From positions 1 to 35,908 of the IMG/VR virus record IMGVR_UViG_3300032092_000116: DNA of 35,908 nucleotides, one strand, 5' to 3'. This stretch comes from a virus. The position numbers and the translations under genes were made by a program. Positions 10,825 through 29,967 of the stretch are shown here, in pieces. The notes beneath the pieces are model-generated. The model was not told where the DNA came from and did not search any database. It saw only the letters and a list, made by a program, of their open reading frames with translations. How positions within the stretch are numbered: the stretch's first letter is position 1; each line of letters begins with the position of its first letter.

Positions 10825-11234
10825 AGGCAGTGGGGGTATGGTTTTTTTGTCCTGCCACACACAGATATCTGTATCTACTGCGCAACGATCCCAAGTATCC
10901 TGACACCTGGGGACTAGCAGGTGGCAAGGTGGAATACGGTGAAACACTAATTGCAGCAGTGGAACGAGAGTGTTCGGAAGAACTGGGTGCCATGCCCGAG
11001 TACAAACAACTGATTCCCATTGAAAAATTCACATCACCGGATTCAGCATTTGAATATCACACCTTCTGGTGTCGTGTGGAGCAGGAGTTTGTGCCTGAAC
11101 TAAATCACGAACATGTGGGCTATGCCTGGATTGGCACAGGACGCTGGCCTAGGCCGCTACATCCTGGATTGTGGAACACTGTGAATCTAGACGCTGTGCA
11201 GCAAAAGATTCGTCAGATTGAACAGACCTTATAG
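10806..11234 (+). CDS. Nudix hydrolase
   Basis: This 142-aa protein contains a complete Nudix box, GX5EX7REXXEEXG, from G40 to G61 (GKVEYGE ... RECSEELG). The glutamates bind the divalent metal for hydrolysis of a nucleoside diphosphate linked to another moiety. Before the box lies a typical strand (YLYLLRN) and the GLAGG turn. Possible substrates include oxidised dNTPs, NDP-sugars, capped RNA and ADP-ribose; the sequence does not decide between them. T4 NudE is a functional precedent in a phage. The start overlaps the gp15 3' end by 19 nt, with GGAGGAG just upstream of the ATG inside gp15, so it is translated from the gp15 mRNA. The 3' end overlaps the convergent fibre gene by 6 nt. Confidence 0.92.
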   Translation: MEPHIVKAVGVWFFCPATHRYLYLLRNDPKYPDTWGLAGGKVEYGETLIAAVERECSEELGAMPEYKQLIPIEKFTSPDSAFEYHTFWCRVEQEFVPELNHEHVGYAWIGTGRWPRPLHPGLWNTVNLDAVQQKIRQIEQTL

Positions 11235-12248
11235 TCTGCCAACTACCACTTCGATTGTGCCAACACCAGTGCCGTTGTAGTTTTCTACTGCTTTGCCAAT
11301 GATCACACCTGGTTGATAGTGCCGCATGTCCAGGCGTTCAGCAACACCTGCTTGACTGCTGGATACCACTCGATCACCAGCAGCAACGGGACCAATCACT
11401 TGACAAGGCACACGTCCAATCAGGCCAACTTCTACAGTGAATTCACTAACCAGTCCCGAGTTCATCACATGAGCAGGATTGGTAGATACTATTCCTGCAA
11501 TTCTAGTGTCATGACTTTGTGTGCTGACGGTTACTTCTTGATCACCGCCAAATACCAGCACAGTACCTGGAGGATATTTGGCATCTGATTTGTAAACTTC
11601 GGCCAAGTCAGCATACAGTGCTGTGGTTGCCTGAGCAAATAGTCTATTGAAACTCAATGTAGCACTACCAATATTGGCTGTGGCATTGCCGGTTGGCATG
11701 AAGTTGCTGCTGATGTTGACATTACCAGTGCCATTGGGTGTCAACACAATATTGGCGTTGCCAGCAGTGGTCTGGAGATCCAACTGAGCAGAGTCTTGAA
11801 TTGCTCCAGTTATAATTAAATTACCACCTGTGATGTTGCCAGTTAATACTGTTAAACTACTACCGGTAATGACTGCACCTGTGATATCACCGGTTGCACT
11901 GATCAAGCCAGTTACATAAGTACCAGTTGTAGCAAATACAGCCACGTTTGATGTTCCACCAATACCAACTGCTATGTTTCCTCCTGAACTCACAACTCTG
12001 GCATTTGATGTACCGTTTACGATTTGAGTAGCATCTACGCCTGTAAGTTGACTACCGTTACCTAGAATGAAACTACCAGTAATATTACCTGTTGCGCTAA
12101 CAATTCCACCAGTTAATATGTTGCCACCAGTTACGTTACCCGATGCACTAAACACCGACGGAGCAAAAGTGCCAACGGTTAGTGTTCCGGCCGCTGTAAT
12201 ATTACCCGATGCTGATATGCCAGTTGTGCCGTCTAATGTGATTGCCAT
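11229..12248 (-). CDS. Short tail fibre / adhesin with conserved C-terminal domain
   Basis: This is a 339-aa protein. Residues 1-195 are Gly/Thr/Asn/Val-rich repeats (SATGNITGS, SASGNVTGGN, LTGG), probably a beta-structured shaft. From about residue 199 a globular domain starts with SFNRLFAQATTALYADLAE. It continues through PPGTVLVFGGDQEVTVS and AGIVSTNPAHVMNS and ends GTIEVVVGRL. The same domain ends the 1845-aa fibre. The domain vaguely recalls the C-terminal autoprocessing (Peptidase_G2-like) domains of some phage fibres, but I see no proof of cleavage. A good AATAAATA late promoter (12270-12277) and an AAGGA Shine-Dalgarno precede the ATG, so this gene can be transcribed separately from the fibre upstream. 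Confidence 0.75.
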   Translation of the reverse strand: MAITLDGTTGISASGNITAAGTLTVGTFAPSVFSASGNVTGGNILTGGIVSATGNITGSFILGNGSQLTGVDATQIVNGTSNARVVSSGGNIAVGIGGTSNVAVFATTGTYVTGLISATGDITGAVITGSSLTVLTGNITGGNLIITGAIQDSAQLDLQTTAGNANIVLTPNGTGNVNISSNFMPTGNATANIGSATLSFNRLFAQATTALYADLAEVYKSDAKYPPGTVLVFGGDQEVTVSTQSHDTRIAGIVSTNPAHVMNSGLVSEFTVEVGLIGRVPCQVIGPVAAGDRVVSSSQAGVAERLDMRHYQPGVIIGKAVENYNGTGVGTIEVVVGRL

Positions 12249-12269
12249 TCTCGTGTCCTTTTTATGCTA

Positions 12270-12277
12270 TATTTATT
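12270..12277 (-). promoter_or_regulatory. T4-type late promoter for the 339-aa fibre
   Basis: AATAAATA on the minus strand lies 22 nt before the ATG at 12248, in the 30-bp gap after the preceding fibre gene. Confidence 0.65.
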
Positions 12278-12278
12278 A

Positions 12279-13391
12279 TCAAGCCGGGGTAAAAATTGTT
12301 AATGTTGCGTCATCAGGAACAAAGATATTGCCCAAATTGCCAACAATTACCGGGCTAATTAGTATTGCATTAACAGCATTTGCCACAAGTATATTACTGT
12401 TAATTGTCTTGGGAGTAGCAAAAGGACCACCTAAACTTAGTGTATTTGTTCCAAAAACTGCAACATTACTATATCCATTAATGCCAACAGTAACATTACC
12501 CCCCGAACTTACCACAGAAACATTACTTGAGCCACTGGCAATTTGCGTAGGAATTCCAACAGAAATACCGGTAAGTTCACTGCCGTTGCCAATAAAATAG
12601 TTACCCGTAACGTTGCCAGTTGCTGATATCAATCCACCTGTTAATACATTGCCACCTGTGACGTTACCTGATACACTTACCACTGAACCTGTGTGACTTG
12701 CTGTGTTCACGATTGTGGTAAACATGCCATTGTTGGCTGTAACGTTACCTGTTACCGAAATCACTGCACCAGTATGACTGGCCACATTTACAATATTTGT
12801 AAACAAACCACTGTCGGCAGTGACGTTACCCACAGCAGATATCAGGCTACCAGTGGTTATACTACCACCAGAATATACGTTACCTGCTGATATGTTTCCA
12901 GTGCTGACTGTGGTCAAGGTGGTCGCACCAGTCACGCTCAGTGTACCTGTTGCCGAAATTAAGCCACCTGTGAGTAGATTACCGCCTGTTACATTGCCTG
13001 AAGCACTGACCACGCCTGTGACGTATTCACCTGTGGTAGCAAACACTGCTACATTGGCACTACCGCCAATGCCAACAGAGACATTACCGCCAGAACTGAC
13101 CACGGTAACATTTGACGTGCCAAGATTAATGTTGGCAACACTGGTAATAACACCAGTTAGTGATGCCCCATTACCAAAAAAGTAGTTGCCGGTTACATTG
13201 CCTGTGGCTGATATATTGCTGTTGACGTTGAGAGTGTTGGCTGTGAGAGTGTCAACCGTGATGACATTGGCCGTGATGACATTGGCAGACGAAAGAATTC
13301 GACTCCAAGAATTAGGGGTGGTAGCATACTGATATGCTATACCACCCACTACTGCAATTTGCCCGTTAGTCGGCGTGCTGGGAAAGGCCAT
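12279..13391 (-). CDS. Repeat-type tail fibre protein lacking the shared C-terminal domain
   Basis: This is a 370-aa protein. The N-terminus (MAFPSTPTNGQ, then AYQYATTPNSWSRIL) is nearly the same as that of the adjacent 1845-aa fibre and probably attaches to the virion. The body consists of ATGNVTGN, SVSGNVTGGNVLTGG and related repeats, with two near-identical units containing FTNIVNVASHTGAV and FTTIVNTASHTGSV. It does not carry the ADLAE domain. Instead it ends with a hydrophobic segment (LVANAVNAILISPVIVGN) and TLTIFTPA. It starts 11 nt after the 1845-aa gene and is in the same transcription unit. It may be a partial duplication of the large fibre with a different tip, giving an alternative or accessory receptor-binding subunit. 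Confidence 0.75.
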   Translation of the reverse strand: MAFPSTPTNGQIAVVGGIAYQYATTPNSWSRILSSANVITANVITVDTLTANTLNVNSNISATGNVTGNYFFGNGASLTGVITSVANINLGTSNVTVVSSGGNVSVGIGGSANVAVFATTGEYVTGVVSASGNVTGGNLLTGGLISATGTLSVTGATTLTTVSTGNISAGNVYSGGSITTGSLISAVGNVTADSGLFTNIVNVASHTGAVISVTGNVTANNGMFTTIVNTASHTGSVVSVSGNVTGGNVLTGGLISATGNVTGNYFIGNGSELTGISVGIPTQIASGSSNVSVVSSGGNVTVGINGYSNVAVFGTNTLSLGGPFATPKTINSNILVANAVNAILISPVIVGNLGNIFVPDDATLTIFTPA

Positions 13392-13402
13392 CTACTACCC
13401 TT

Positions 13403-13830
13403 TTAATTTTTGCCAATCACAAGTTCAATCATGCCTTCACCGCCTGCGAAGTTTTCTAACGCTTTGCCAATTATGGTACCTACTTTTGGACTTGCAATTG
13501 TCACTGCACGAGCTCTACCATTTCCTGCTGACACCATTAGATCACCTTTGCGTACAACACCTGTTACCTTGACTGGAACTCTACCAATCAGTGCCACTGG
13601 CAATGTGATGTCACCAACAATGCCCGAATTCATCAGATGTGCAGGATTGGTTGATATCACGCCAGCAACTCGTTTGCTAGAATCAGTGTTACTTATTGTG
13701 ATTTCTTGAGTGCCGTCAAAATCTACCACAGTTCCTGCATCGTACGCAGCGTCACTCACATACATCTCTGCCAAGTCGGCGTAGAGTGCTGTGGTTGCCT
13801 GAGCAAACAGTCTATTGAAGTATGTAGTCG
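13403..13830 (-). repeat. Shared C-terminal fibre module, copy 2
   Basis: This segment encodes the FNRLFAQATTALYADLAE domain of about 140 aa. It is paralogous to 11229-11655 in the 339-aa fibre gene. DNA identity is high at the domain start (the stretch encoding ATTALYADLAE) and lower towards the 3' end. Confidence 0.75.
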
Positions 13831-16800
13831 AACTACCAATGTTGCCCACTGCATTACCTGCACCGTTCACAATGGCAGTGGCTGCTGCTCCAGAGTTCAC
13901 AGTAAGTATGCCTGCTGTGTCCAAGTTGCCACCAGTGATTGTGCCTGTTGCACTGACAACACCTGTGACATACTGACCTGTTGTGGCAAATACCGCTACA
14001 TTTGATGTTCCAGCAATAGTGATGTTGGCATTGCCATTCAGCGTTTGGATATCAATCTGTGTGGTTCCGTTCTGGATTCTATCGCCCAGAATGTTGCCAC
14101 TCAGTGTGGCGTTGCCGCTCACGCTCAAGTCGCCAGTGATTGCTACCGCAGTCGAAGTAATAACCATCACGTTTGATGTTCCGCCAACTGACGCTGCAAT
14201 ATTGCCGCCTGAGCTGACCACACTCATGTTGGTTGTGCCGTTGTTGATATTGCTCACGCTGGTAATGATACCGCTCAACGAAGCACCGTTGCCATAGTAG
14301 TTTGTGGCGTACACGTCTCGGAATGTTTGTCCGCTGGCACCAATATCATACACATTGCTAGTGGCTACCAGCAAACTGCCTGAGATTGCCACGTTGGCAA
14401 CTACTCCACCTGCAAATGCAGGACTGGTTGTGTCAACCCAGTAATCGCTTGTGCCATCATTGAGATATTCATACAGCACGTCTGTGGAAGTATTGTACCA
14501 CTGCCAGCCTTCAAGTGGGTTGGCCGGTGGTGTGGTATTTGCTGTGTAATTTACACCAAACACAATGGCCTGACCATTGGCATAGTAGTAGTTGTTTGAA
14601 AGTATGTTGCCACCAGCAATGTTGCCAGTGGTGGTGATCAATCCGGTTGTGCTGATGTTGCCACCAGTGATGTTGCCACTTACAGACACAACTGATCCCA
14701 GTATACTTGAACCAGTGATTGTTCCTGTTGAACTGATCAGTCCACCTGTTAATACGTTGCCACCGGTGATGTTGCCTGTGGCACTTGCGGTGCCGCCTGT
14801 GGCAATGTTTCCGCCAGTTATTGTGGCTGAACTTGTGATGGTTGATGTGGCACTAATTAATCCACCAGTTAGAACATTACCGCCTGTGATGTTGCCAGTT
14901 GCTGACGCAGTACCACCTGTGGCCAAATTTCCACCTGTTACTGTACCAGCTGCTGACGCTATTCCACCTGTGAGTACATTACCACCTGTGATGTTACCTG
15001 TGGCACTTGCGGTACCACCTGTGGCAATATTACCACCAGTTATAGTGCCTGTGACACTTGCGGTGCCGCCTGTGGCAATATTGCCACCGGTTACTGTTCC
15101 TGATGCACTCAATAGTCCGGTGATGTACTCACCTGTTGTGGCAAATACCGCAACATTTGATGTGCCGTCAACACTGACTGTGACGTTGGCGTTGGCTGTT
15201 GCAATGGTCACGTTTGATGTACCATTGTTGATGTTGGCCACACTTGTGATAACACCAGTCAACGATGCACCATTACCCAGAATATAGTTACCAGTTACGT
15301 TGCCAGTAGCACTTACTTGGCCGGCTGTTAAGACATTACCACCTGTGATATTGCCAGTTGCACTTGCAGTGCCACCTGTGGCCAAGTTGCCACCTGTTAC
15401 AGTACCTGCTGCACTTGTTGTTCCACCAGTGGCCAAGTTGCCACCAGTTACTGTACCTGCTGCTGAAGCTGTTCCACCAGTGGCCAAGTTGCCACCAGTT
15501 ATGGTAGCAGCACTTGTGATAGTCGATGTTGCACTGATCAATCCACCAGTTAAGACGTTACCGCCTGTGATATTGCCAGTTGCACTTGACGTGCCACCAG
15601 TTTCAATATTTCCACCAGTTATTGTGCCAGTTGAACTGATCAGTCCCCCTGTGAGTACGTTGCCACCTGTAATGTTGGCACTGCTTGTGATAGTTCCTGT
15701 AGATGAAATTAATCCACCTGTCAACAAGTTACCACCGGTGATATTGCCAGTAGCACTTGCTGTTCCGCCAGTGGCCAAATTGCCACCAGTTACTGTTCCA
15801 GCAACACTTGCTGTTCCACCTGTGGCCAAGTTGCCAGCGGTTACTGTTCCAGTCGAACTAATTAGGCCACCTGTTAGCAAATTACCACCAGTGACATTAC
15901 CTGACGCACTCAGACTTGCTGCGCCAAATGTGCCAGCAGTGGAAATATTACCACCGGTAATGTTGCCGGTAGCACTGATCAAGCCACCTGTGACTACATT
16001 GCCGCCTTCAACATTGCCAGTTAGGCTTACACTTGTACCTGTTGCAGCACCAATATTGGGTGTGGTCAGGTTAGCACCAGCCTTGACAATGATATTGCCT
16101 GTGCCATCAAATGCTGTGGTATTGTTGTCAATCTTAACTGAAAATACTGTACCGGTTAGGCTCAGACCAGCTGAGGTATTGGCTGAGTAAACTTGACTGC
16201 TACTGAATATACTAAAAGAAATGTTGCTTGTGCCAAATGTAATTACACCTGTTGGCGCACTAACAATAAAGGCTGAGCCTGCATTGACATTACCACCAGT
16301 AGTGAAGAAATAATCATTGATACTGAATGATTCTGCATTGTCAGATCCGTATTGATCAGTGTCTGTAGATCGAACAATCGCTGTGGCATTGGCCCAGACA
16401 TACACACCGTTTTGTACAGCGTTGGCTTGATCTTTGACCAGAATACGTGTGCCAACAGACTGAACATTGCCGGTATCAATTAAATTAAATGATCCTGTTG
16501 TGGTCAGTGTTGCTCCAACACCATTGGCCACGCCATTGGGTTGAGCATATGTGATTGTACCACCTGTGGTAGTGGCCAAAGTTGTGGTTGTTGCAACAAC
16601 CACAGCCTCGTGATAACTGATAGCAGTGGTTGCAAGATTGTCAACGTATTCTTTTGTGGCTGCATCAGATGACTGTGCTGGATATGCCAAGCTATTGATA
16701 TATGTGTTGGCCAATACAATATTGCCAGCTGGTTGCAGATTCAAATTACCCGACGCAGTGGTAATTGTTAATTCACCACTTGTGGGTCTAATAGCACTGG

Positions 16801-18940
16801 TGTTAACATTGCCAGCAATAACGTTGCCGGTTACTGATACCAGTCCAGAGGTCAACAAGTTGCCGCCGGAGATATTAGATGTTGTTGTAATGGTACCAGT
16901 TGAACTGATCAATCCACCTGTCAACAAATTACCACCTGTGATGTTGCCAGTAGCTGAAGCTGTGCCGCCTGTGGCAATATTACCACCAGTTATTGTACCT
17001 GTAGCACTAGCAGTTCCGCCAGTGGCCAGGTTGCCACCTGTTATGGTGCCTGCCGCACTTGCTGTGCCACCTGTGGCCAAGTTGCCACCGGTTATTGTGG
17101 TGGCACTTGTGATAGTACCAGTTGAGCTAATCAATCCACCAGTGAGTACGTTACCACCTGTGATATTTCCTGTGGCACTTGACGTACCACCTGTGGCAAT
17201 ATTTCCACCTGTTACTGTTCCGCTTGCACTAACAACACCTGTAACATATTCACCTGTGGTTGCAAACACAGCAACATTGGATGTGCCGTCAACACTGACT
17301 GTGACATTGGCATTGGCAGCAGCGATAGTTACATTTGATGTGCCATTGTTGATATTGGCCACGCTGGTGATAACACCAGTTAGTGATGCACCGTTACCCA
17401 AGATATAATTACCAGTAACATTGCCGGTTGCACTTACTTGTCCGGCTGTTAAGACATTGCCGCCTATGACATTTGCAGTGGCACTGAGTGTGGTGCTTGA
17501 AATTACATTAGCACCAGAAATATTACCGCCTGATCCCGAAGTTGAAATATTTCCAAAAGTGGCATTACCAGTGGCTGAGACTATGCCACCTGTAAGTACA
17601 TTGCCACCGGTGATGTTGCCGGTTGCTGACGCAGTGCCGCCAGTGGCCAAGTTGCCGCCTGTTACAGTACCTGCTGCACTGGCTGTTCCGCCTGTGGCAA
17701 TGTTTCCACCGGTTACAGTACCAGCTGAACTGATCAGTCCACCAGTTAAGACATTGCCGCCTGTGATATTTCCTGTGGCACTGGCTGTACCACCTGTGGC
17801 CAGGTTGCCACCTGTTATTGTGTCAACGCCGGTGATTGTTCCTGTGGCACTGATTAATCCACCAGTTAAGACATTGCCGCCGGTGATATTACCTGTTGCT
17901 GATGCTGTGCCGCCTGTGGCAATGTTTCCGCCGGTTACAGTGGCAGTGGCACTTACTTGACCACCTGTTGTTATGTTGCCACCAATTACGTTGCCAACTG
18001 CACTAACTGTGGTTCCTGCTGACACCGCATTGGTTGCAGACAGATTGTTGGAGCTAAAATTATTGGCTGTAAAAATTGCAGTGGCATTTGAACTAAGTGT
18101 TTGATCACCAAGATTCAGTGTATTACCGCTTAGATACAAGTCTTTCCAGAGTTGTCCTGGACCACCAAGGTTAAATGTTGCGTTGGCAGAGGGCAATAAA
18201 TTACCAATTACATTGCCAGTAATACTAAAATTACCTGTTTGTGTTACTCCGCTGGTGATTAAATTGCCACCAGTGATGTTGGCAGCACTTGTAATAGTGC
18301 CAGTCGAACTGATCAGTCCACCTGTGAGTACATTGCCACCTGTGATATTGCCCGTGGCACTGGCTGTTCCGCCAGTGGCCAAGTTGCCGCCAGTTACTGT
18401 TCCAGTTGCTGACGCTGTTCCACCTGTGGCAATATTTCCACCGGTTACTGTGCCAGTTGAGCTGATTAACCCACCTGTGAGTACATTGCCACCTGTGATG
18501 TTACCTGCAGCACTGGCTGTTCCGCCAGTGGCCAAGTTGCCACCTGTTACTGTGCCAGTTGCACTAACAACACCTGTTACAAAAGCACCAGTTGGAGCAA
18601 ACACAGCAACATTAGGAGTTCCTGTGACTGTGATTGCAATATTGCTATTGGCTGCTGCTGCAATGTTGCTGTTGCCTGCCGAGATTGGAAAACCGCCACT
18701 TGAGGCCACAACCCCAGTCAACTGACTACCGTTACCAAAGTAATAATCAGCTGTGATGTTGCCGCTGGCAACAATATCCACTCCCACAGTCAAGTTGCCA
18801 TTTACTGCAATTGTGTTGGCGGTAATAACGTTTGCTGTAGATAAAATTCTAGTCCAGCTGTTGGTTGCACTGGAATACTGGTATGATACCTGATTAACTA
18901 CGGTTACTTGACCGTTTGTGGGTGTTGTTGGAAATGCCAT
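13403..18940 (-). CDS. Giant repeat-built tail fibre / adhesin (1845 aa)
   Basis: The N-terminus (MAFPTTPTNGQ, YQYSSATNSWTRIL) is shared with the 370-aa fibre. Most of the protein is tandem 17-residue units of the type ATGNITGGNVLTGGLIS / ATGTVTGGNLATGGTAS, likely a long beta-solenoid or triple-stranded shaft. Around residues 700-975 a non-repeat domain intervenes with LVKDQANAVQNGVYVW, a sequence type found in many phage fibres. Around 1450-1550 a second module carries WQWYNTSTDVLYEYL and DYWVDTTSPAFAGG. The C-terminus (from about 1705) is the FNRLFAQATTALYADLAE domain also present in the 339-aa fibre. No signal peptide is present. A TATAAATA late promoter (18970-18977) and CAGGAG Shine-Dalgarno lie upstream. 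Receptor binding or virion decoration is the likely role; the repeats may also be hard to assemble from short reads. Confidence 0.85.
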   Translation of the reverse strand: MAFPTTPTNGQVTVVNQVSYQYSSATNSWTRILSTANVITANTIAVNGNLTVGVDIVASGNITADYYFGNGSQLTGVVASSGGFPISAGNSNIAAAANSNIAITVTGTPNVAVFAPTGAFVTGVVSATGTVTGGNLATGGTASAAGNITGGNVLTGGLISSTGTVTGGNIATGGTASATGTVTGGNLATGGTASATGNITGGNVLTGGLISSTGTITSAANITGGNLITSGVTQTGNFSITGNVIGNLLPSANATFNLGGPGQLWKDLYLSGNTLNLGDQTLSSNATAIFTANNFSSNNLSATNAVSAGTTVSAVGNVIGGNITTGGQVSATATVTGGNIATGGTASATGNITGGNVLTGGLISATGTITGVDTITGGNLATGGTASATGNITGGNVLTGGLISSAGTVTGGNIATGGTASAAGTVTGGNLATGGTASATGNITGGNVLTGGIVSATGNATFGNISTSGSGGNISGANVISSTTLSATANVIGGNVLTAGQVSATGNVTGNYILGNGASLTGVITSVANINNGTSNVTIAAANANVTVSVDGTSNVAVFATTGEYVTGVVSASGTVTGGNIATGGTSSATGNITGGNVLTGGLISSTGTITSATTITGGNLATGGTASAAGTITGGNLATGGTASATGTITGGNIATGGTASATGNITGGNLLTGGLISSTGTITTTSNISGGNLLTSGLVSVTGNVIAGNVNTSAIRPTSGELTITTASGNLNLQPAGNIVLANTYINSLAYPAQSSDAATKEYVDNLATTAISYHEAVVVATTTTLATTTGGTITYAQPNGVANGVGATLTTTGSFNLIDTGNVQSVGTRILVKDQANAVQNGVYVWANATAIVRSTDTDQYGSDNAESFSINDYFFTTGGNVNAGSAFIVSAPTGVITFGTSNISFSIFSSSQVYSANTSAGLSLTGTVFSVKIDNNTTAFDGTGNIIVKAGANLTTPNIGAATGTSVSLTGNVEGGNVVTGGLISATGNITGGNISTAGTFGAASLSASGNVTGGNLLTGGLISSTGTVTAGNLATGGTASVAGTVTGGNLATGGTASATGNITGGNLLTGGLISSTGTITSSANITGGNVLTGGLISSTGTITGGNIETGGTSSATGNITGGNVLTGGLISATSTITSAATITGGNLATGGTASAAGTVTGGNLATGGTTSAAGTVTGGNLATGGTASATGNITGGNVLTAGQVSATGNVTGNYILGNGASLTGVITSVANINNGTSNVTIATANANVTVSVDGTSNVAVFATTGEYITGLLSASGTVTGGNIATGGTASVTGTITGGNIATGGTASATGNITGGNVLTGGIASAAGTVTGGNLATGGTASATGNITGGNVLTGGLISATSTITSSATITGGNIATGGTASATGNITGGNVLTGGLISSTGTITGSSILGSVVSVSGNITGGNISTTGLITTTGNIAGGNILSNNYYYANGQAIVFGVNYTANTTPPANPLEGWQWYNTSTDVLYEYLNDGTSDYWVDTTSPAFAGGVVANVAISGSLLVATSNVYDIGASGQTFRDVYATNYYGNGASLSGIITSVSNINNGTTNMSVVSSGGNIAASVGGTSNVMVITSTAVAITGDLSVSGNATLSGNILGDRIQNGTTQIDIQTLNGNANITIAGTSNVAVFATTGQYVTGVVSATGTITGGNLDTAGILTVNSGAAATAIVNGAGNAVGNIGSSTTYFNRLFAQATTALYADLAEMYVSDAAYDAGTVVDFDGTQEITISNTDSSKRVAGVISTNPAHLMNSGIVGDITLPVALIGRVPVKVTGVVRKGDLMVSAGNGRARAVTIASPKVGTIIGKALENFAGGEGMIELVIGKN
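14610..18600 (-). repeat. 51-bp tandem coding repeats (17-aa fibre units)
   Basis: Dense tandem arrays of 51-bp units encode TGG-N-[IVL]-x-TGG motifs. They occur in blocks (about 14700-15120, 15300-15990, 16830-17230, 17560-17960 and 18240-18560) interrupted by unique modules. Neighbouring units are often nearly identical. They keep frame and lie within the 1845-aa gene. Similar but more diverged units occur in the other fibre genes. Confidence 0.85.
16015..16840 (-). repeat. Paralogous fibre module block A, copy 1
   Basis: A block of about 825 bp encodes the LVKDQA...QNGVY domain and its flanks. It matches 24440-25265 in the 2392-aa gene at high identity and in the same orientation, so the two copies are direct repeats about 8.4 kb apart. 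Confidence 0.8.
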
Positions 18941-18969
18941 TGATTACGCTCCTGGTATTGGTTATATTG

Positions 18970-18977
18970 TATTTATA
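18970..18977 (-). promoter_or_regulatory. Consensus T4 late promoter for the 1845-aa fibre
   Basis: A perfect TATAAATA on the minus strand lies 29 nt before the ATG at 18940. It begins directly after the T-tract of the terminator for the upstream gene. Confidence 0.85.
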
Positions 18978-19010
18978 AAAAAAACAGATTTAAAAATTAC
19001 AGTCTGTCTT
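18977..19010 (-). terminator. Terminator after the MTxEQWLAxQ-repeat gene
   Basis: On the minus strand, AAGACAGA (overlapping the stop codon) pairs with TCTGTTTT to give a stem of 8 bp including one G-U pair, with a loop of about 14 nt. It is followed by a run of eight T. The stem is A-T rich, so termination may be partial. Confidence 0.5.
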
Positions 19011-19680
19011 ATTTTATGTTTGCTTGCTCTGCCAACCACTGTTCTCGGGTCATTTGACGCGGTTGCAGAGCGGTTTTTTGTTGTTCAAGCCACTGTTCTC
19101 TAGTCATCGTTGGTTCATTTATCTGAGCTTTTTGCTGTGCCAGCCATTCTTCTGCTGTCATAGTAGGACGTGAATCCCGCAACAATGTTGGGGCATGAAT
19201 TGTCTTGATCTGTTGCTGGCTGGCCAACCACTGTTCTCTAGACATTGGGCTGGCTGATTGTTGTTGAGCCAGCCATTCCTGATTAGTCATTTTTGTTTCT
19301 TCTGCTAGCCATTGCTCAACTGTGAGTTTTGCCACTGGATTTTCAACTGTTTGTGGATCTGCTGTTGGTGAATCGCCCATTGGATGACGTGGATATTTTT
19401 CTTTTACTGCTCGTATTCTGGCTGCCATTGGTGCTGGAAAAACTCCAGCATGATACAGTGCATCCAGTTGTTCTTGCACACTGGGATACTCTCTAGCACG
19501 ATTCCGTTGATACATGTTCCAGTCATAGGCCTGTTGCAGTCGCCGTTGCTCTTCGAGTATTTGTGCTGTGGTCACTGGAGCTGTTTCGGGCTTGTGCCAG
19601 ATTATTGTTTTGTCATACATGCCCACACTGACTTCTGCCCCGGGCACCAGACTCTGTATAGCATGAAACACAGTTATCAT
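19009..19680 (-). CDS. Tail-fibre assembly-like protein with six MTxEQWLAxQ repeats
   Basis: The start is the ATG at 19680, which overlaps the stop of the preceding fibre as ATGA and has GGAG upstream. The 223-aa protein has three parts. Residues 1-35 form a small beta-rich segment. Residues 38-97 are charged and helical, with REYPSVQEQLDALYHAG and IRAVKEKYP, a sequence type seen in small phage proteins encoded next to tail fibres. Residues 119-219 hold six copies of a 10-residue motif (LTVEQWLAEE, MTNQEWLAQQ, MSREQWLASQ, MTAEEWLAQQ, MTREQWLEQQ, MTREQWLAEQ) joined by variable linkers. Each copy would make a short amphipathic helix with an exposed Trp-Leu pair. I infer a fibre chaperone or adaptor that binds several partners; I do not recognise the repeat domain. 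Confidence 0.75.
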   Translation of the reverse strand: MITVFHAIQSLVPGAEVSVGMYDKTIIWHKPETAPVTTAQILEEQRRLQQAYDWNMYQRNRAREYPSVQEQLDALYHAGVFPAPMAARIRAVKEKYPRHPMGDSPTADPQTVENPVAKLTVEQWLAEETKMTNQEWLAQQQSASPMSREQWLASQQQIKTIHAPTLLRDSRPTMTAEEWLAQQKAQINEPTMTREQWLEQQKTALQPRQMTREQWLAEQANIK

Positions 19681-21167
19681 GATGCGGTGATCTCCATGGC
19701 TATCAACCAGATATTTGTGCTGGTCAGTGTGCTGCTGGCATTGGACACTTTTTGTTGTAGTTTGTAGGTCACTGGTGATGTGGTTCCTGGGCTGTCCACA
19801 TAATTGTAAGATACAGAACCGGTGACACCAATACCACCACCCGAAACTGTGGTTCCGCATGTTTGTATTTGCAAACTGGTGCTGGGGCTTCTGACCAACT
19901 GAGCGTCAGCTGTGACATCCTGTCCTGCCAATGATGTAAAACTGGTAGTACCTGTGGCCATGACAAAGACCTTGCTGGTTGCACTTGATGGGGTAATAGT
20001 CACGTTGGCATAACTGATGTCAGCATAACTGGTGCTGTTTGTGATACTGCCCCCAAGACTTGAACTCATCACTGTTTGTACCACTGCACCTACTGGCATG
20101 TTATACGCAGGTAATCTGTTGTTGGTATATAGATTCTGCGTGTAGGTGTTACGGAAATACACTGTGCTAGTACCAATGTCATAGGTGACATTTGCAACCG
20201 GTATCAGAGTGCCAGAAATTGCCACGTTGGCAACTACGCCGCCTGCAAAGGCAGGACTGGTTGTGTCAATCCAGTAATCGCTTGTGCCATCATCAAGATA
20301 TTGATACAGCACATCATTGGCAGTATCATACCATTGATCAGTTACTTTGGGTGCTGGGCTAACAGGAGGTGCTGTATTGGCAGTATATACTATTCCAGGA
20401 GGAACTGGTGTACCATTGGCATAATAATAGTTGTTGGACAGTATGTTGCCGCCGGTGATATTACCCGACGCACTTACTGCTCCAGAAACATATGCACCTG
20501 TGTTGGCAATCACAACTACATTGCCTGTGCCATTCACACTCATGGTAATGTTGGCATTGGCGCTAGCAATAGTCACATTGCTGGTACCGTTGCTGATGAA
20601 TGTGGTGTCTACACCAAATTCACCCACATATCTATAACCCACAACATAAATTGTGTTGGCTGTTCCTGTACCAATGGCTGCTGGTATGGTTGCGCCGTTG
20701 AAGTTTAGTACGCCGGACTGGTAGTCAAAAAACCAAGTGTCGTCTGCGCCAGACCCAGCGCCAAACAACTTGGTACCTGCTGTTTGAGCATTGGTAATAC
20801 CAGGTGCGGCTGCATAAACCTGCACAAGATAATTGTCACCAAACTGTGTGGGAATCCAGTTGATCGAGTTTGTTTTCCAGGTTTGATTGTCTGGTGCTGT
20901 GAGATCTTCTGTACATTGCACTGTGGGACTGTATCCAGCTCCGCCGCCATCCTTGTACACCTGTACCAGTGGTGTGGTATTGGCAGGCGGTGAAGCAGGT
21001 ATGTCTCCACTCTGTGTCCAGATAAGATCGCCGCGATACAGCAGCGGACTGGCAATGCTTTCGTTGAAGGCTTCTTTGGATGCAGGCTCGGCTGTTTTGG
21101 TTACGCCGTAGCCAACCTTTTTCCAAAGATAGTCAATTTTTTGTGATTCGTTAAAAGAAGCAGCCAT
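19677..21167 (-). CDS. Virion structural / tail fibre protein (496 aa)
   Basis: The N-terminal 170 residues (ASFNESQKIDYLWKKVGYG, SPLLYRGDLIWTQS, NSINWIPTQFGDNYLVQVY, DDTWFFDYQSGVLNF) match a conserved structural protein type of T4-like marine phages, probably an attachment domain. Residues 180-235 are shaft-like repeats (NVTIASANANITMSVNG). Residues 239-350 form the module YYYANG ... QWYDTANDVLYQYL ... DYWIDTTSPAFAGG, which is shared with the 1845-aa fibre. The C-terminal 140 residues form a distinct tip with a single Cys (QIQTCGTT) and IWLIAMEITAS at the end. Its ATG overlaps the stop of the 2392-aa gene by 1 nt (TAATG), and its own stop overlaps the next gene, so three genes are translationally coupled. 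Confidence 0.8.
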   Translation of the reverse strand: MAASFNESQKIDYLWKKVGYGVTKTAEPASKEAFNESIASPLLYRGDLIWTQSGDIPASPPANTTPLVQVYKDGGGAGYSPTVQCTEDLTAPDNQTWKTNSINWIPTQFGDNYLVQVYAAAPGITNAQTAGTKLFGAGSGADDTWFFDYQSGVLNFNGATIPAAIGTGTANTIYVVGYRYVGEFGVDTTFISNGTSNVTIASANANITMSVNGTGNVVVIANTGAYVSGAVSASGNITGGNILSNNYYYANGTPVPPGIVYTANTAPPVSPAPKVTDQWYDTANDVLYQYLDDGTSDYWIDTTSPAFAGGVVANVAISGTLIPVANVTYDIGTSTVYFRNTYTQNLYTNNRLPAYNMPVGAVVQTVMSSSLGGSITNSTSYADISYANVTITPSSATSKVFVMATGTTSFTSLAGQDVTADAQLVRSPSTSLQIQTCGTTVSGGGIGVTGSVSYNYVDSPGTTSPVTYKLQQKVSNASSTLTSTNIWLIAMEITAS

Positions 21168-24100
21168 TAAGACACCACTCCTATCTGCAGGTCTGTGATG
21201 GACTGCCCGGCCGCTAATGCAATTCTAATTAGAATATTGGTACCAGTGCTGTTGGCGGCATTTTGAGATCCTAGGGTCATTGTGTAAGCTACGTTAGAGA
21301 TTGCTGTATTTAATGGAATTACATCTGCCCCGGTCAAGGCACATCCATTTGAACCATTGCCGCCGGTGCCAGTGGCTGCACCAGGAACGCCTGATCCGGC
21401 ATATTGTGTAGATGCTTCCAACCATCCGTTGATGGTACTGGTAGGTCCTGGGAATCCCGGTGTGGGTGACGAGAATCCGCCTGTGTCTATTGTGGTTCCG
21501 GGTGCAGCCAGCCATACACCTGCAACACCTGTGGTTGTGGTTAATCTAATATCAAAGTTTGCCAGGCTTGGTCTTGCAAATGCAAAAGTAAAGTACTGTG
21601 TGCTGGTGCGGCCGCCAGTGACTGACAAGTTTGGTCCCACTGGCAAATATCCTGTGCTGAGATCAACTGCATACTGTTTGAGCACACCGTATCGAACCAC
21701 AGCTTCTGGTGTTCCAGCAATGGTTTGTGCTCCGGACCAGGCGTTGGCAGTGTAGAAATTGGTTGAATTGGAAAATACAGGAGTGTTGCCTGCGGTGCTC
21801 ATCACTATTCGTATGGCTGCTTGTGTGTTGGCAGTGGGTGTGCAAATGATTGCCTGTTCGTTTATGCCAGAATTTGCACCTGCGTACATCTGTATATTTG
21901 CCGGCAATTGCACAGTGGCACTGGTTCCTATCACGTTGAATATGTTGGCCTGCAAAGTGGCCACGCTGTTGTTGGCTCCTGTTAGGTTGGCAGTCAAGTT
22001 GCCAAGTGTGTAAGATGAACCAACACCCACATTGGCATTTAGATTGGCACCTGTCAAGAAGCTGTTGCCAGCATTGTTGATTGTGCCGAGTGCTTTGGTC
22101 TGTGTTGCGGACAATATGGCTCCGGATCCTTCGATCACTGTTCCACTGGCCAACACAAACGGATCTGCACTTCTAAATGTTTGTCCAGACAAGTTTGCCA
22201 CTGCCAGTGTGGCAATGGTAATTGTGGGGGATCCTGTGTTGTAGTAAGGAATACCTGAAATATATCGATAGGTGCCGGCTGTGGCTTCAACCAGAGTGGT
22301 ACTGGCAGTGACCAGGCTAGGTGCTGAATTCAAATTGTCTTTGACAAATCCCACATAGTTGGTGTTGCCTGTTACTGAGTCTACCAATTTGTAGTTGTTG
22401 TAACCGGTACTCAAGCTGCTGAGGGCACAGGCAACATTGGCATTGAACACCTTGTAGAAGTAGCTTGGCACAGCAGCATTGGCCACGTGCAAGTCTCGAT
22501 CTTGAGTGATTACCAATGCACCTGAAGTTCCAACAGTGTTGCTCACATTGCTAAATGTCACGTTTCCGGCCTCAACATTGTTGACATAGGCAAACAGGTT
22601 GGCTGTCAACTGAGTTGAACTTATGCCTGTGTTGGCATTGATAATATTGGCAGCAGTAGCAATTGGTGTGGTTGTTGCAAAACGTGTGACACTGACACCA
22701 TTGGCCACAATGTTGCCGCCAGAAGCATCTGTTGCTCCAGCAGCCAACAACGGGCTGGTTCCTTGACTGGTGTTGGCTATGGTCAAGTTGGAGAATCCAC
22801 TAAGGTTAGTTGGTGCTGTGGGATTGGCAGCAATAAAAATATAACCAACATTGGAGATGGTATTGCTTTGAGCAGTGCTGGTTATACCGTTGGGCGTGCC
22901 ATTGGCCGTGAGTGCCACTGTGAACGCACCAGTGCTGTTGTAAGTGTGCAGCGTGTTGCCCACATTTGATACACCGTTGCTGAATGTGCTATCACCCCAG
23001 GACCAGTTGGCCAGATTACTGTTCTGACTGGTGTTCTGGAATGTAAACGTTGATCTGTTGGAAGTATTGTAGTCAGTATAGAGATATCCCACTCTGGCAT
23101 TGCCTGTGTTGGCAGTGGCATCTGTCACAACGTTGGCTGTGGTTCCAATATAGTTGCCACGCACCTGAGGTTCTATTGTGATTGTGATGTTGCCACTCTG
23201 GGCCGGGCTGCTGCTGTAACCAGTGTACAGATACAAATTGGCTGTGAACTGTTGGTAAACGTTGCCGGCTTGGTTAGCAGCACTCAACACAAATGTGTTT
23301 GTGACATTGGCTGCTGCTGGGTTACCTGCAATACCTGTGCCCACATTGACGTTGCCAACATTGCCGTCACCGTAGTTGAAGTTGTACAATTGTTGTGCGC
23401 CAAAACTGGCTGTATTGCCTGGCGTGCCATTTGAGTCGTTGCGGAAACTTATGCCACCTAGGCCGTTGATCACGTTGGCCCGATTGGCTGTGACAAACAC
23501 ATTGCCAGTTTGAGGAGCAAAAACTTTAACATTGCTAGCCGATGATACCACAGTAACGTTGCCTGGACCTGCGGTGTTGCTGGTGCCACTTAGAACTGCA
23601 CTGTACAAACTGTCTGCGTTGGACGACACGGAATTGTACTGATGAGTTACATTGGTAAATGAGGTATTGCCCAGACCTGGACCAGCAGCAAAATTAGCAG
23701 TACCATCGCCAAAACTCAGGTCATACCAGACCACATACTGGCTGGTGTTGGTTATGGTTATGGTGTTGCCTGTGTTGAAACTGTTGCTGCTCAGAGTAAA
23801 TGACGGTATCGGACTTGGAGTGTACAACACAATGTTTGAAATGTTAGCACTGCTAGTGGACCCTTTGGCACCATTGGCTGCATTGCCGTTGTAGGTTCCA
23901 TTGGTATTGAAGGCCGTGAAGTTCACAGTAAAAGTTCCGCCTAGAGTATTGCTAAAGGTATGAACCGCATTGGCTGTGGTAGCATTGGCTGTGCCATCTC
24001 CAAACTGCCACAAGAAACTGTTGGGATTACCAATGTAATAACTGGTGAATGCCACTGTCAACGGACTGGGTCCAGAATAAACATTGGCAGTGATATAGGC

Positions 24101-27100
24101 ATTGCCCACATAGGTACTGTTGGCAATGTTCAATGACACCTGATTTAAGTCATCTAGACCGTCTGTTACAAAAGTACCTGTGGTCCATCCAGGGTAAGCA
24201 ACGTTAGCTGTTAGGCTACCATCTGTGGGTGTGCCCAGAGTAATGGTATTGCCCACGCCGCCAGAAGCAATGACATTAGAAAGTCCTGCACCGTTACCAG
24301 CAAAGTAATTGCCAGTAATGTTGCCAGTTGCACTTATTGAGCCGCCTGTGGTTACATTGCCACCTGAAATATTGGCAGCACTTGTGATGTTGCCAGTTGC
24401 ACTTATCAAGCCGCTGGTGTTGACATTTCCACTGTTGACATTTCCTGTTAGACTTAGACTTGTGCCTGTGGCAGCACCAATATTGGGTGTGGTAAGATTG
24501 GCACCTGCCTTGACAATAATATTTCCACCAGCATCAAATGCTGTGGTATTCAGATCAACTTTGGCACTGAATACTGTACCAGTTAGACTTAGTCCAGCGT
24601 CAACGTTGGCAGTGTAGGCAGTTGTTTGACTAAACAGAGCAAAAGTAATGTTGCTTGTGCCAAAAGTAATAGTGCCCGGCGGTGAATTGACTATGAAAGC
24701 TGCACCAAGATTGACATTACCAGTGCTGGTAAAGAAATAATCGTTTAGACTTATCTGTTGCGAACTATCTGGTCCATATTCGTCTGCATCAGTGGCTCGA
24801 ACAATTGCTGTGGCATTGGCCCAGGTGTAAATGCCGTTTTGTACCGCATCGGCTTGATCTTTGACCAGAATACGTGTGCCCAGTGTTTGAACGTTGCTGG
24901 TATCAATCAGATTGAATGAGCCTGTGGTGGTCAGCGTTGCACCAACTCCGTTAGCTACTCCGTTGGGCTGAGCATATGTGATTGTTCCGCCTGTGCTAGA
25001 AGCCAGGGTGGTAGTGGTAGCTGCATATACAGGTGTATGGTACGCTATAGCTGTTGACACCATGTTGTCAACATATAATTTTGTTGCAGCATCAGTGTCT
25101 TGTGCTGGATAGGCCACACTGTTGATATAGGTGTTGGCCAACACAATATTGCCTGCTGGCTGCAGATTCAAATTGCCTGACGCAGTGGTAATTGTCAATG
25201 GCCCGCTGACAGGTCTAATAGCACCAGTATTGACATTGCCAGCAATCACATTGCCTGTAACACTTGCAAGTCCTGTGGCAAAAATATTGTTGCCAGAAAT
25301 ATTACCGGTTGCAGTAATTAATCCTGCTGTGCTTAAATTACCAACGGTGGCATTGCCAGTTGCTGATATTAGGCCTCCTGTGACAACGTTGCCACCCGAA
25401 ATATTGGTAGCACTTGTAATGTTACCAGTTGCACTTATCAAGCCACCTGTTAGTAAATTACCTGCGGTTGTGTTTCCAACCACACTTAGACTAACCAAAT
25501 TGCCGACTGATGTTAGGCTCGAGTTTAATACATTTGAACTTAGAGTGTTGCCAATTAGTGCATCAGCATTTACACTAGATGCTGCAACACCTGTTAATTG
25601 ACTACCATTACCAATAAAATAATTACCACTAACATTGCCGGTTGCTGTTATCAATCCCACTGTGTTAATGTTACCAGCAGTAACATTAGCGGTTGCAGAT
25701 ATCAATCCAGCAGTGAGTAAGTTACTGCCAGTGATATTACCTGTTGCACTAATTAGGCCAGTAACATATTCGCCTGTTGTGGCAAATACTGCTATGTTGC
25801 TTGTTCCGCCTATGCCAACAGAGACATTGCCGCCAGAGCTAACAACAGTAACATTTGATGTGCCAAGATTGATGTTGGCCACACTGGTAATCACACCAGT
25901 CAGCGATGCACCGTTGCCCAGGATATAATTGCCGGTTATGTTGCCAGTTGCACTGATTAATCCACCAGTTGATAAATTACCACTAGTTGTGTTTCCTGTT
26001 ACGCTTAGATTGCTCAGGGTGCCAACCGACGTTAGACTGGAGTTCAATACATTTGAACTTAATGTGTTGCCGGTTAATGCGTTGGCGTTGACTCCAGATG
26101 CTGTAACACCTGTCAATAAACTACCGTTACCAATAAAGTAATTGCCAGCAATATTGCCTGTGGTTGATACCAGTCCGGTTAAATTTGGTAAGTTGCCCGA
26201 ATATGTTGGCAGGAAGTTGGCCACATCAGCATTGCTGTATCCTGCCGGTAATCCTGTGATGAGAGCACCGTTACCAAGCAAATAACTGCCTGTTATGTTG
26301 CCTGTGGCACTAATGACACCAGTGACATATGCACCGGTGTTGGCAAACTGTGCTATGTTGCTGATTCCACTTACACCAACTGTGACGTTGCCATTGGTAG
26401 CCACAACAACATTACTATTACCATTCAACAGTGATGATCCAGCTGATACCGTGATGCCTGTTAGTAACGCACCGTTACCAACAAAATAGTTGCCTGACAC
26501 ATTACCGCTGGCACTGACTTTGCCAGTGGTCAGTAAGTTTCCACCAATCACATTGCCCGATGCGCTGACAACAGTGGCACCAATAGTGCCAGATACAGAA
26601 GTATTGCCTAGTGATGCATTTCCAAAAATTACTAACCCGTTACCAACAAAGTTATCGCCATACACATTGCCTTGGGCACTTACGATACTATCAACATTTA
26701 CATTGCCAGCATGTATGTTGCCAGTGTCTACATTGCCGCCTGTGATATTGCCCGTGGCTGTGATAAATCCTGGCGTAACAAGATTGCCGCCACGAATGTT
26801 TCCTGCAGCACTAACTGTGAGACTTGAGACTGTTCCGCCAGGAACACTGAGATTACCACCAGTTATGTTTCCTGTAGATGAAATCTGTCCAGCTGTGGTG
26901 ATATTGCCGCCAACCACGTTGGCAGTGGCAGTAACAGTGGTTCCGGTTACGGTAGTACCAATTAGATTGTTGCCGGTGACGTTGCCAGCAGCACTGATTG
27001 ACCCGCTGGCTGCAACAGTCACAGCATTGACTTTGGTGGCATCTACATTGCCTGCTGTGACGTTGCCTGTGACTGTGGCTTGACCACTGGTTAACAAATT

Positions 27101-28345
27101 GCCGCCAGTGATGTTGGCAGTGGTTGTTACAGGCCCTGTTAAACTGACCAGGTTACCTGTGTATGTGGGCAGGTATGCAGCAACATTGGCATTGCTGTAA
27201 TTACCAGCAGGTAGATTGGTTAACTGACTACCGTCACCCAAGAAGTACGCACCAGTGACATTGCCACTTGCACTAACTGGCCCGCTGACAGTAACCGTAG
27301 CAGCATTGACTCTGCTGGTATCAACATTGCCTGCTGTGACGTTGCCTGTGGCTGTTATTTGTCCAGTCGCACGAATATTAGCACCAGTGATATTGGCTGT
27401 GGTTGTTACTGGACCGGCAAGACTGACCAGGTTACCTGTATAGGTTGGAAGATATGCAGCAACATTGGCATTGCTGTAATTCCCAGTAGGTAAATTTGTT
27501 AATTGACTACCATCACCAAGGAAGTATGCACCGCTAACATTTCCACTGGCAGTAATATTAGCAGCATTGACTCTGCCAGTGTCTACGTTGCCACCAGTGA
27601 TGTTGCCTGTGGCTGTTATTTGACCACTAGTTCTTAAATTTGCGCCTGTGACGTTAGAAGTGGTGGTAACAGGTCCTGTCAGGCTGACCAGGTTACCTGT
27701 GTATGTGGGCAGGTATGCAGCAACATTGGCATTGCTGTAGTTGGCATTGATTCCTGTCAGCAACGCACCGTTGCCCAGAATATAATTGCCTGCGATGTTG
27801 CCTGTTGCACTTACTGCACCTGCAACATACACTCCAGTATTGGAAAATACCACAATATTGCCGGTGCCGTTGACAGTGACAAATATATTGGAACCCGCTG
27901 TGGGTATCGTGATATTGCTGTTGCCGTTTACAACCCTGCTGCCTGTGGTGGCTACAATGCCTGTAAGTGCAGATCCGTTGCCAATAAAATAGTCAGCGGT
28001 GATATTACCGCTGACAACAATGCCACCTGTGATGTCCAGGCCGCCGGAGCCCACATAGATGGTGTTGAATCTTTGAGACAAGCTGCCCAGATCATACACA
28101 TTGTCGATTCGTGGCAGCAGTGTGTTGTTGACCTGAATTTTGCCAATTCCCGAAGGACTCAATATCAGGTTGCTGTTTATCACCGTGGTGGTGATGGTGT
28201 TGTTGGCAATTTTTACATTTGAGCCAACAGGTCCCGATTCAAAAATCTGGCTGAAGTTGTCGTTGGTAAATGCAAACGCTGTGCGTAACGGGTCGCCCTG
28301 CCCGTCGTCGGGTACCGCGCCAATGTCAATAACATATTGGGTCAT
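21167..28345 (-). CDS. Giant PKD-containing tail fibre / adhesin (2392 aa)
   Basis: The N-terminus (IDIGAVPDDGQGDPLRTAF, then NDNFSQIFE) is a common start of phage fibre-like structural proteins. Residues about 100-1020 are shaft repeats with NYFIGNGSLLTGV and ANVAAYLPTYTGN units. Residues about 1027-1302 are module A, shared with the 1845-aa fibre. Four PKD-like beta-sandwich domains follow, marked by WQFGDGTA (near 1447), LSFGDGTA (near 1545), FNYGDGNV (near 1658) and WSWGDSTF (near 1782). A poorly repetitive region follows. The C-terminal domain (about 2245-2392) has TSTQYFTFAF, a GGNGSNGCALTGAD loop and ILIRIALAAGQS. PKD domains typically act as spacers or bind glycans. It is probably a long receptor-binding or capsular-polysaccharide-binding protein. 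Export is not indicated. Confidence 0.85.
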   Translation of the reverse strand: MTQYVIDIGAVPDDGQGDPLRTAFAFTNDNFSQIFESGPVGSNVKIANNTITTTVINSNLILSPSGIGKIQVNNTLLPRIDNVYDLGSLSQRFNTIYVGSGGLDITGGIVVSGNITADYFIGNGSALTGIVATTGSRVVNGNSNITIPTAGSNIFVTVNGTGNIVVFSNTGVYVAGAVSATGNIAGNYILGNGALLTGINANYSNANVAAYLPTYTGNLVSLTGPVTTTSNVTGANLRTSGQITATGNITGGNVDTGRVNAANITASGNVSGAYFLGDGSQLTNLPTGNYSNANVAAYLPTYTGNLVSLAGPVTTTANITGANIRATGQITATGNVTAGNVDTSRVNAATVTVSGPVSASGNVTGAYFLGDGSQLTNLPAGNYSNANVAAYLPTYTGNLVSLTGPVTTTANITGGNLLTSGQATVTGNVTAGNVDATKVNAVTVAASGSISAAGNVTGNNLIGTTVTGTTVTATANVVGGNITTAGQISSTGNITGGNLSVPGGTVSSLTVSAAGNIRGGNLVTPGFITATGNITGGNVDTGNIHAGNVNVDSIVSAQGNVYGDNFVGNGLVIFGNASLGNTSVSGTIGATVVSASGNVIGGNLLTTGKVSASGNVSGNYFVGNGALLTGITVSAGSSLLNGNSNVVVATNGNVTVGVSGISNIAQFANTGAYVTGVISATGNITGSYLLGNGALITGLPAGYSNADVANFLPTYSGNLPNLTGLVSTTGNIAGNYFIGNGSLLTGVTASGVNANALTGNTLSSNVLNSSLTSVGTLSNLSVTGNTTSGNLSTGGLISATGNITGNYILGNGASLTGVITSVANINLGTSNVTVVSSGGNVSVGIGGTSNIAVFATTGEYVTGLISATGNITGSNLLTAGLISATANVTAGNINTVGLITATGNVSGNYFIGNGSQLTGVAASSVNADALIGNTLSSNVLNSSLTSVGNLVSLSVVGNTTAGNLLTGGLISATGNITSATNISGGNVVTGGLISATGNATVGNLSTAGLITATGNISGNNIFATGLASVTGNVIAGNVNTGAIRPVSGPLTITTASGNLNLQPAGNIVLANTYINSVAYPAQDTDAATKLYVDNMVSTAIAYHTPVYAATTTTLASSTGGTITYAQPNGVANGVGATLTTTGSFNLIDTSNVQTLGTRILVKDQADAVQNGIYTWANATAIVRATDADEYGPDSSQQISLNDYFFTSTGNVNLGAAFIVNSPPGTITFGTSNITFALFSQTTAYTANVDAGLSLTGTVFSAKVDLNTTAFDAGGNIIVKAGANLTTPNIGAATGTSLSLTGNVNSGNVNTSGLISATGNITSAANISGGNVTTGGSISATGNITGNYFAGNGAGLSNVIASGGVGNTITLGTPTDGSLTANVAYPGWTTGTFVTDGLDDLNQVSLNIANSTYVGNAYITANVYSGPSPLTVAFTSYYIGNPNSFLWQFGDGTANATTANAVHTFSNTLGGTFTVNFTAFNTNGTYNGNAANGAKGSTSSANISNIVLYTPSPIPSFTLSSNSFNTGNTITITNTSQYVVWYDLSFGDGTANFAAGPGLGNTSFTNVTHQYNSVSSNADSLYSAVLSGTSNTAGPGNVTVVSSASNVKVFAPQTGNVFVTANRANVINGLGGISFRNDSNGTPGNTASFGAQQLYNFNYGDGNVGNVNVGTGIAGNPAAANVTNTFVLSAANQAGNVYQQFTANLYLYTGYSSSPAQSGNITITIEPQVRGNYIGTTANVVTDATANTGNARVGYLYTDYNTSNRSTFTFQNTSQNSNLANWSWGDSTFSNGVSNVGNTLHTYNSTGAFTVALTANGTPNGITSTAQSNTISNVGYIFIAANPTAPTNLSGFSNLTIANTSQGTSPLLAAGATDASGGNIVANGVSVTRFATTTPIATAANIINANTGISSTQLTANLFAYVNNVEAGNVTFSNVSNTVGTSGALVITQDRDLHVANAAVPSYFYKVFNANVACALSSLSTGYNNYKLVDSVTGNTNYVGFVKDNLNSAPSLVTASTTLVEATAGTYRYISGIPYYNTGSPTITIATLAVANLSGQTFRSADPFVLASGTVIEGSGAILSATQTKALGTINNAGNSFLTGANLNANVGVGSSYTLGNLTANLTGANNSVATLQANIFNVIGTSATVQLPANIQMYAGANSGINEQAIICTPTANTQAAIRIVMSTAGNTPVFSNSTNFYTANAWSGAQTIAGTPEAVVRYGVLKQYAVDLSTGYLPVGPNLSVTGGRTSTQYFTFAFARPSLANFDIRLTTTTGVAGVWLAAPGTTIDTGGFSSPTPGFPGPTSTINGWLEASTQYAGSGVPGAATGTGGNGSNGCALTGADVIPLNTAISNVAYTMTLGSQNAANSTGTNILIRIALAAGQSITDLQIGVVS
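22860..24110 (-). other. Four-domain PKD array within the 2392-aa fibre
   Basis: Four copies of the PKD signature [WFY]-x-[FWY]-G-D-[GS] are visible, spaced by roughly 100-125 residues, each followed by an H-x-[FY] strand (VHTFSN, THQYNS, NTFVLS, LHTYNS). The third is the most degenerate. Confidence 0.7.
24440..25265 (-). repeat. Paralogous fibre module block A, copy 2
   Basis: This is the direct-repeat partner of 16015-16840. The protein segments share DAATK-YVDN, PNGVANGVGATLTTTGSFN, TRILVKDQA-AVQNG and KAGANLTTPNIGAATGTS. Confidence 0.8.
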
Positions 28346-29963: not shown

Positions 29964-29967
29964 TCTC

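Follow-up and report, generated by a model that had tools for sequence, protein, structure and literature searches.

Mosaic tail-fibre genes with shared modules and repeat units in an uncultured freshwater phage

Mosaic tail-fibre genes have been described for phage P2 and others (Haggard-Ljungquist 1992, as cited in PMC3945230), and a survey of protein-fragment shuffling pointed to receptor-binding proteins as a hotspot of recent mosaicism (PMC10684548). In the Xanthomonas oryzae phages OP1, Xp10 and Xop411 the duplication of a tail-fibre domain was linked to a change in host range (PMC2248197, which also cites Tetart 1996 for a domain duplication in the adhesin of T4). The pelagiphage Polarivirus skadi has hypervariable metaviromic islands that include tail genes with lectin domains (PMC10504331). 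Here we describe a fibre gene cluster on a linear IMG/VR virus record of 35,908 bases (IMGVR_UViG_3300032092_000116; the whole stretch is referred to as the window). Five minus-strand open reading frames (ORFs) between 11229 and 28345, all open over their full length, encode fibre or fibre-like proteins. They were predicted to fill about half of the window and indeed take up 48% of it, although the interval also holds a sixth, non-fibre ORF. The five genes share parts, and among related phages the cluster varies by gain and loss of repeat units, by replacement and relocation of modules and by turnover of the genes in a tip slot. Very probably this represents ordinary but intense tail-fibre mosaicism, brought about by general homologous and repeat-mediated recombination. 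The genes, which carry the protein length in their names, and their parts are the following.

11229-13391: tip slot, adjoining the nudix gene
11229-12248, minus: fibre gene g339, in the hypervariable slot adjoining the nudix gene; short N-terminus, one GNGxLTG repeat, C-terminal ADLAE domain
11235-11666, minus: ADLAE C-terminal domain of g339; the block of DNA shared with relatives stops sharply at about 11690
12279-13391, minus: fibre gene g370; MAFP N-terminus, three GNGxLTG repeats, short C-terminal module; in some relatives its counterpart encodes 720-1386 amino acids
13251-13391, minus: MAFPxTPTNGQ N-terminal module of g370
13403-18940, minus: giant fibre gene g1845; MAFP N-terminus, TGGN repeats of 17 and 23 residues, LVKDQA and YYYANG modules, ADLAE C-terminus
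13409-13834, minus: ADLAE C-terminal domain of g1845
14405-14602, minus: YYYANG/DYW module of g1845, site of an allele swap relative to the near-identical contig L001
16106-16810, minus: LVKDQA module of g1845, replaced relative to contig L084
18794-18940, minus: MAFPxTPTNGQ N-terminal module of g1845
19009-19860, minus: ORF of the non-fibre gene g283, between g496 and g1845; phrog_9114 (function unknown)
19677-21167, minus: fibre-like gene g496; phrog_9417 N-terminal domain, YYYANG module, its own C-terminal domain
20238-20441, minus: YYYANG/DYW module of g496
21167-28345, minus: fibre gene g2392; N-terminal domain, nine GNGxLTG repeats, LVKDQA module, PKD domains, long C-terminal region
21176-24268, minus: PKD-containing and C-terminal region of g2392
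24533-25237, minus: LVKDQA module of g2392

The 1845-amino-acid protein has parts in common with each of the other four. It shares the LVKDQA block with g2392 (77% amino acid identity over 245 codons), the YYYANG/DYW module with g496 (74%, 76 codons), the ADLAE C-terminus with g339 (56%, 143 codons) and the MAFPxTPTNGQ N-terminus with g370 (66%, 47 codons). All four similarities persist in composition-adjusted BLAST with low-complexity masking (E 1e-28 to 1e-114), and the comparison with the 2392-residue protein yields 1033 bits, whereas shuffled versions of the 1845-residue sequence reach at most 268. Chance or low-complexity similarity was ruled out by these shuffles and the composition-adjusted searches. 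The original prediction of a common N-terminus, two common internal modules and a common C-terminal domain is therefore borne out by both the alignments and the masked BLAST.

The companion claim, that one 17-residue repeat joins all five genes, held only in part. The repeat (T-G-G-N-[LI]-A-T-G-G-T-A-S-A-T-G-[NT]-[IV]) is real: within the 1845-residue protein 27 spacings are exactly 17 residues and seven are 23, and the 51-nucleotide (nt) arrays were detected by Tandem Repeats Finder. It is, however, mainly a feature of g1845, with 40 TGGN copies versus 2, 2, 1 and 5 in the proteins of 339, 370, 496 and 2392 residues. The last of these mostly consists of a different, longer repeat of the GNGxLTG type together with PKD domains. 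At the DNA level, the repeats within this genome align at about 65-89% identity. AlphaFold2 models show short strands throughout these repetitive, beta-rich and fibre-like proteins, which have conserved N- and C-terminal modules; in the 17-residue array the strands are regular and the predicted local distance difference test (pLDDT) is about 80-84, a moderate confidence for the shaft. A search of the array model against the PDB gave no significant match.

The clearest evidence for change comes from related phages, all of them IMG/VR metagenome contigs, of which L081, L082 and L084 derive from different records. At about 94% identity, phages are set apart by complete repeat units of 51, 69, 102 and 276 nt, gained or lost in frame. 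Segments of 69, 69, 102, 219 and 51 nt that are present in g1845 of L081 are absent from L082, and the peptides lost correspond to one or more complete units of 17 or 23 residues, except for the 219-nt loss, which is a mixed segment. The g2392 gene, 95% identical to that of L081 and 92% to that of L084 over aligned positions, lacks a 276-nt unit that both relatives have, and contains 282 nt that are absent from L081; g496 has no insertions or deletions among the relatives compared. At the gene level these differences are in frame, apart from cases split by the aligner: the global pairwise aligner broke some differences between the window and L081 or L084 into out-of-frame pieces, and MAFFT and codon alignments were used for those.

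Modules were replaced and relocated as well. Over some 7.2 kb from g496 to g1845 the window and L001 (an 11.7-kb contig) show 36 mismatches, 28 of which fall at 14426-14555, inside the YYYANG module; the otherwise almost identical contig thus carries a different allele in about 130 bp. This allele is 89% identical to the g1845 copy of L084 and 75% to the g496 copy of L084, and in its 3' part the window allele matches g496-type copies at 87% identity. When g1845 is compared with L084, the synonymous divergence (dS) reaches 0.78 in LVKDQA but is 0.14 in the ADLAE domain, and the L084 g1845 copy of LVKDQA branches outside a supported group of L081, L082 and L001 in the module tree. The submodule IVSATGNATFGN... 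is found at about codon 453 in the window, in L081 and in L082 but at about codon 1282 in L084, and the single TFGAAS... submodule of the window is represented in L084 by two copies that are 96-99% identical to it. The patchiness is also reflected in the dispersion of synonymous differences, which for g1845 is 12.6 between the window and L081, 18.9 between L081 and L082 and 5.7 between the window and L084, as compared to 1.6-2.3 in structural genes and less than 1 in g496.

Such exchange operates within limits. In the LVKDQA tree the g2392-type label requires 8 changes, versus 30 when shuffled, and supported branches force at least six changes of context; the YYYANG tree requires four changes in all, with one clear supported jump from g496-type to g1845-type genes. 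Modules thus mostly keep to their own gene lineage. Among complete ORFs the common, fixed combinations of N- and C-terminus are NT_496+CT_496, NT_2392+CT_2392 and NT_MAFP+CT_ADLAE, and NT_2392+CT_496 and NT_496+CT_ADLAE are rarer. The comparison of related genomes that had been proposed as a check of the original prediction revealed in-frame changes in repeat number, module replacement, relocation and swapped tip genes; a fixed module order with no sign of exchange was not what we found, but the gene order g195-g2392-g496-g283-g1845 is nonetheless constant in the relatives that span the locus.

The tip genes turn over as a whole. Relatives whose nudix and stabilizer proteins are 96-100% identical have wholly different genes in this slot, which often end in the same ADLAE C-terminal domain and several of which have lectin domains. 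Fibres with Laminin_G_3 lectin-like domains are found in L018 and L013, separate lectin-like, fibrinogen-like and glycine-rich genes in L003, and a tryptophan halogenase (PF04820, E 1e-109) together with a 2OG-Fe(II) oxygenase-like gene in L011 (10888-13100). Following the ADLAE-ending genes upstream from the C-terminus, the DNA identity to g339 stays at about 58-100% per 45-nt step for some 450 nt in ten of twelve and then drops to background at the domain border; the exceptions are L018, which remains similar up to about 585 nt, and one gene of L110, which could not be aligned without gaps.

The ADLAE domain itself is likely a shared folding module. The g339 domain was modelled with a pLDDT of about 85-98 (mostly above 92 from about residue 220 on), and the model resembles the C-terminal intramolecular chaperone of phi29 gp12, related to Peptidase_G2: Foldseek matched it to the C-terminal fragment of gp12 (3gqh) with probability 1.00, E 2.9e-3, a TM-score (TMt) of 0.56 and a root-mean-square deviation of 4.6. 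The Peptidase_G2 profile (PF11962) matches 18 of 38 members of the ADLAE family at E up to 1, with a best value of 4.4e-5. In the Pfam search neither ADLAE protein of the window matched this profile, and the g339 domain had no Pfam match at all; the ADLAE profile gave only chance-level matches to PDB sequences, and no match to Peptidase_S74 was found in the window. Because the gp8.5 base and cement proteins are matched at lower E-values, the match is to be read as a shared fold and not as membership of one family. Fold and position together would be consistent with a C-terminal folding or chaperone role, possibly that of an autochaperone.

How these observations may be connected can be outlined as follows. 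The fibre genes would encode long, beta-rich and presumably trimeric shafts, attached by their N-terminal domains and ending in C-terminal domains that serve folding or form the tip. Related phages that infect the same cell would recombine by general homologous recombination, with the conserved domains and the repeats supplying the homology, and internal modules as well as the tip genes adjoining the nudix gene would be replaced in this way. Unequal exchange or slippage between repeats would add or remove whole units of 17, 23 or about 92 residues in frame and so alter the length of the shaft, which might have consequences for the host range. Published work has shown that phage recombinases can act on diverged substrates (PMC3945230); exchange between modules of 70-90% identity would be in keeping with this and could take place in the present phage. 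A RecA-family recombinase is encoded in four of ten records. Reshuffling had been proposed to proceed without a reverse transcriptase, and indeed none (RVT_1) turned up either in the window or among nine related contigs (74-200 kb), all of these records being fragments. A diversity-generating retroelement was rejected on the same ground, no reverse transcriptase having been found in the ten records, though pairs of template and variable repeats were not separately searched.

Several points weigh against this interpretation. Many unit-sized insertions and deletions have only 0-3 nt of exact end homology, though similarity in the flanking 60 nt is often 60-85%. The shaft model is moderately confident and lacks a significant PDB match, the similarity of the ADLAE family to Peptidase_G2 is weak and does not extend to either ADLAE protein of the window, and Foldseek fits cement proteins and the base of the gp8.5 head fibre at least as well as gp12. 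Moreover, since all comparisons were made on metagenome assemblies without reads, strain chimeras may be among them. In L001 (3755-4453) the g370 gene has lost 172 nt, with a frameshift, and another 159 nt in frame, deletions that are either real or produced by the assembly. With one out of frame and both having about 1 nt of end homology, they were not used as evidence for repeat recombination and may represent artefacts or illegitimate deletions.

The age of the shared parts bears on where the shuffling takes place. Between module copies within this genome dS is 0.8-1.4, or saturated for MAFP, and the two copies of the GNG module within g1845 differ by a dS of 1.03; the sheath-stabilizer gene, for comparison, has a dS of 0.18-0.27 between near relatives. 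The non-repeat modules have therefore been separate for long, and recent gene conversion among them was ruled out on this basis, repeat units not being individually dated. Shuffling thus consists mainly of exchange between phages plus gain and loss of units, rather than free reshuffling within one genome. This makes it improbable that the cluster, originally suggested to work as a cassette for host-range evolution, is a dedicated diversification cassette, in which selection would favour raised rates of reshuffling among the tips and shafts of a single genome with the repeats as programmed sites. Such a cassette would account for g1845 being both rich in repeats and patchy, the gain and loss of units, the submodule that moved within that gene and the hypervariable tip slot; it is difficult to reconcile with near-saturated module copies that mostly stay in their lineage, with a fixed gene order and with repeats that are only about 65-89% identical and among which no dedicated site was found. 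No invertase, integrase or reverse transcriptase was identified in the window (for invertases, among the family matches, with no systematic search for inverted sites and on an incomplete genome). We are equally doubtful that the 17-residue arrays of g1845 are an evolved recombination substrate, in which similarity is kept at the codon level and units and intervening modules turn over faster than general phage recombination predicts, tuning fibre length and tip identity within the population.

Slightly less probable still is that the differences in repeat number and modules stem from short-read assembly of mixed strains. Every relative is a metagenome contig and L001 has its two odd deletions, but the exact direct repeats all fall below about 70 nt, the gene-level changes are in frame apart from those split by the aligner, and the patchiness is missing from g496 and near background in the structural genes. 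In addition, paired records agree in length (L084/L085, L125/L126, L121/L122 and L151/L152) and are almost perfectly concordant, L084 and L085 being 99.94% identical without gaps over 2190 codons, although some pairs may be reassemblies of the same sample. Old duplications followed by divergence through descent alone, which would agree with the high dS and with module trees largely sorted by gene context, are very unlikely in view of the L001 allele swap, the LVKDQA replacement relative to L084, the context changes and the jump on supported branches and the unusual pairs of N- and C-terminus.

The surroundings of the cluster are those of a tailed-phage virion gene region. PHROG matches in the window include the tail tube, tail sheath, sheath stabilizer, head-tail adaptor, a gp23-like major head protein and the prohead protease, which mark this as a contractile-tailed, T4-related phage. 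The head protein has its best annotated relatives, at about 64% identity, in Vibrio phage 2.275.O, Pseudomonas phage PA5oct and other large myoviruses. Related contigs that carry these fibre modules extend to 200 kb and more, which makes a jumbo genome likely, and the phage belongs to a common uncultured group of large T4-related freshwater myoviruses. Within the cluster, the true start of g283 is probably near 19680, since the listed ORF overlaps g496 by 184 nt; its C-terminus has its own repeat of the MTxEQWLAxQQ type. Beside the cluster, ORF 29848-31119 (plus strand) encodes TPR repeats with a weak match to glycosyltransferase family 9. An Rfam freshwater-2 RNA (RF02980) lies at 29819-29908 on the minus strand, at the 5' end of ORF 29039-29821, which has no Pfam or PHROG match; the RNA recurs in each of the seven related loci tested. 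The structural genes are interspersed with an HNH endonuclease and a homing endonuclease (4472-4816 and 31173-31928), and a 27-bp tandem repeat (35474-35536) within ORF 35003-35827, itself without family match, is found beside the prohead protease.

A limited literature search returned nothing on a repeat fibre of freshwater jumbo phages, on freshwater-2 RNA in phages or on autocleavage of phi29 gp12. The locus provides a well-resolved natural case in which fibres change by repeat units, module replacement and turnover of tip genes, with borders that match protein domains, and with environmental long reads it allows the turnover of tips and of fibre length to be measured directly. As in P2 and other phages with mosaic fibre genes, domains are shared in varied combinations among relatives and exchange is bounded by domains; here, however, five genes of one locus share parts, one gene has dozens of 17-residue units and the phage is uncultured. 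With OP1, Xp10, Xop411 and the T4 adhesin it has in common that the copy number of fibre segments changes in association with short repeats, although the arrays are much longer here and known from sequence alone. The ADLAE domain is like the phi29 gp12 chaperone and Peptidase_G2 (PF11962; 3gqh, 3suc) in lying at the C-terminus of a fibre or appendage protein, in the weak profile match of its relatives and in its fold, but identity in the structural alignment is about 15% and the best fold E-values are to gp8.5 base and cement proteins. The islands of Polarivirus skadi likewise vary in the tail or receptor region between otherwise similar phages, lectin-fold proteins included, yet they belong to another phage group and were defined by read coverage, whereas the slot described here was recognised from the genes that the assemblies contain. 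That fibres are mosaic and that duplicated fibre domains can affect the host range is already established, and this locus is a rich new example rather than a new kind of system.

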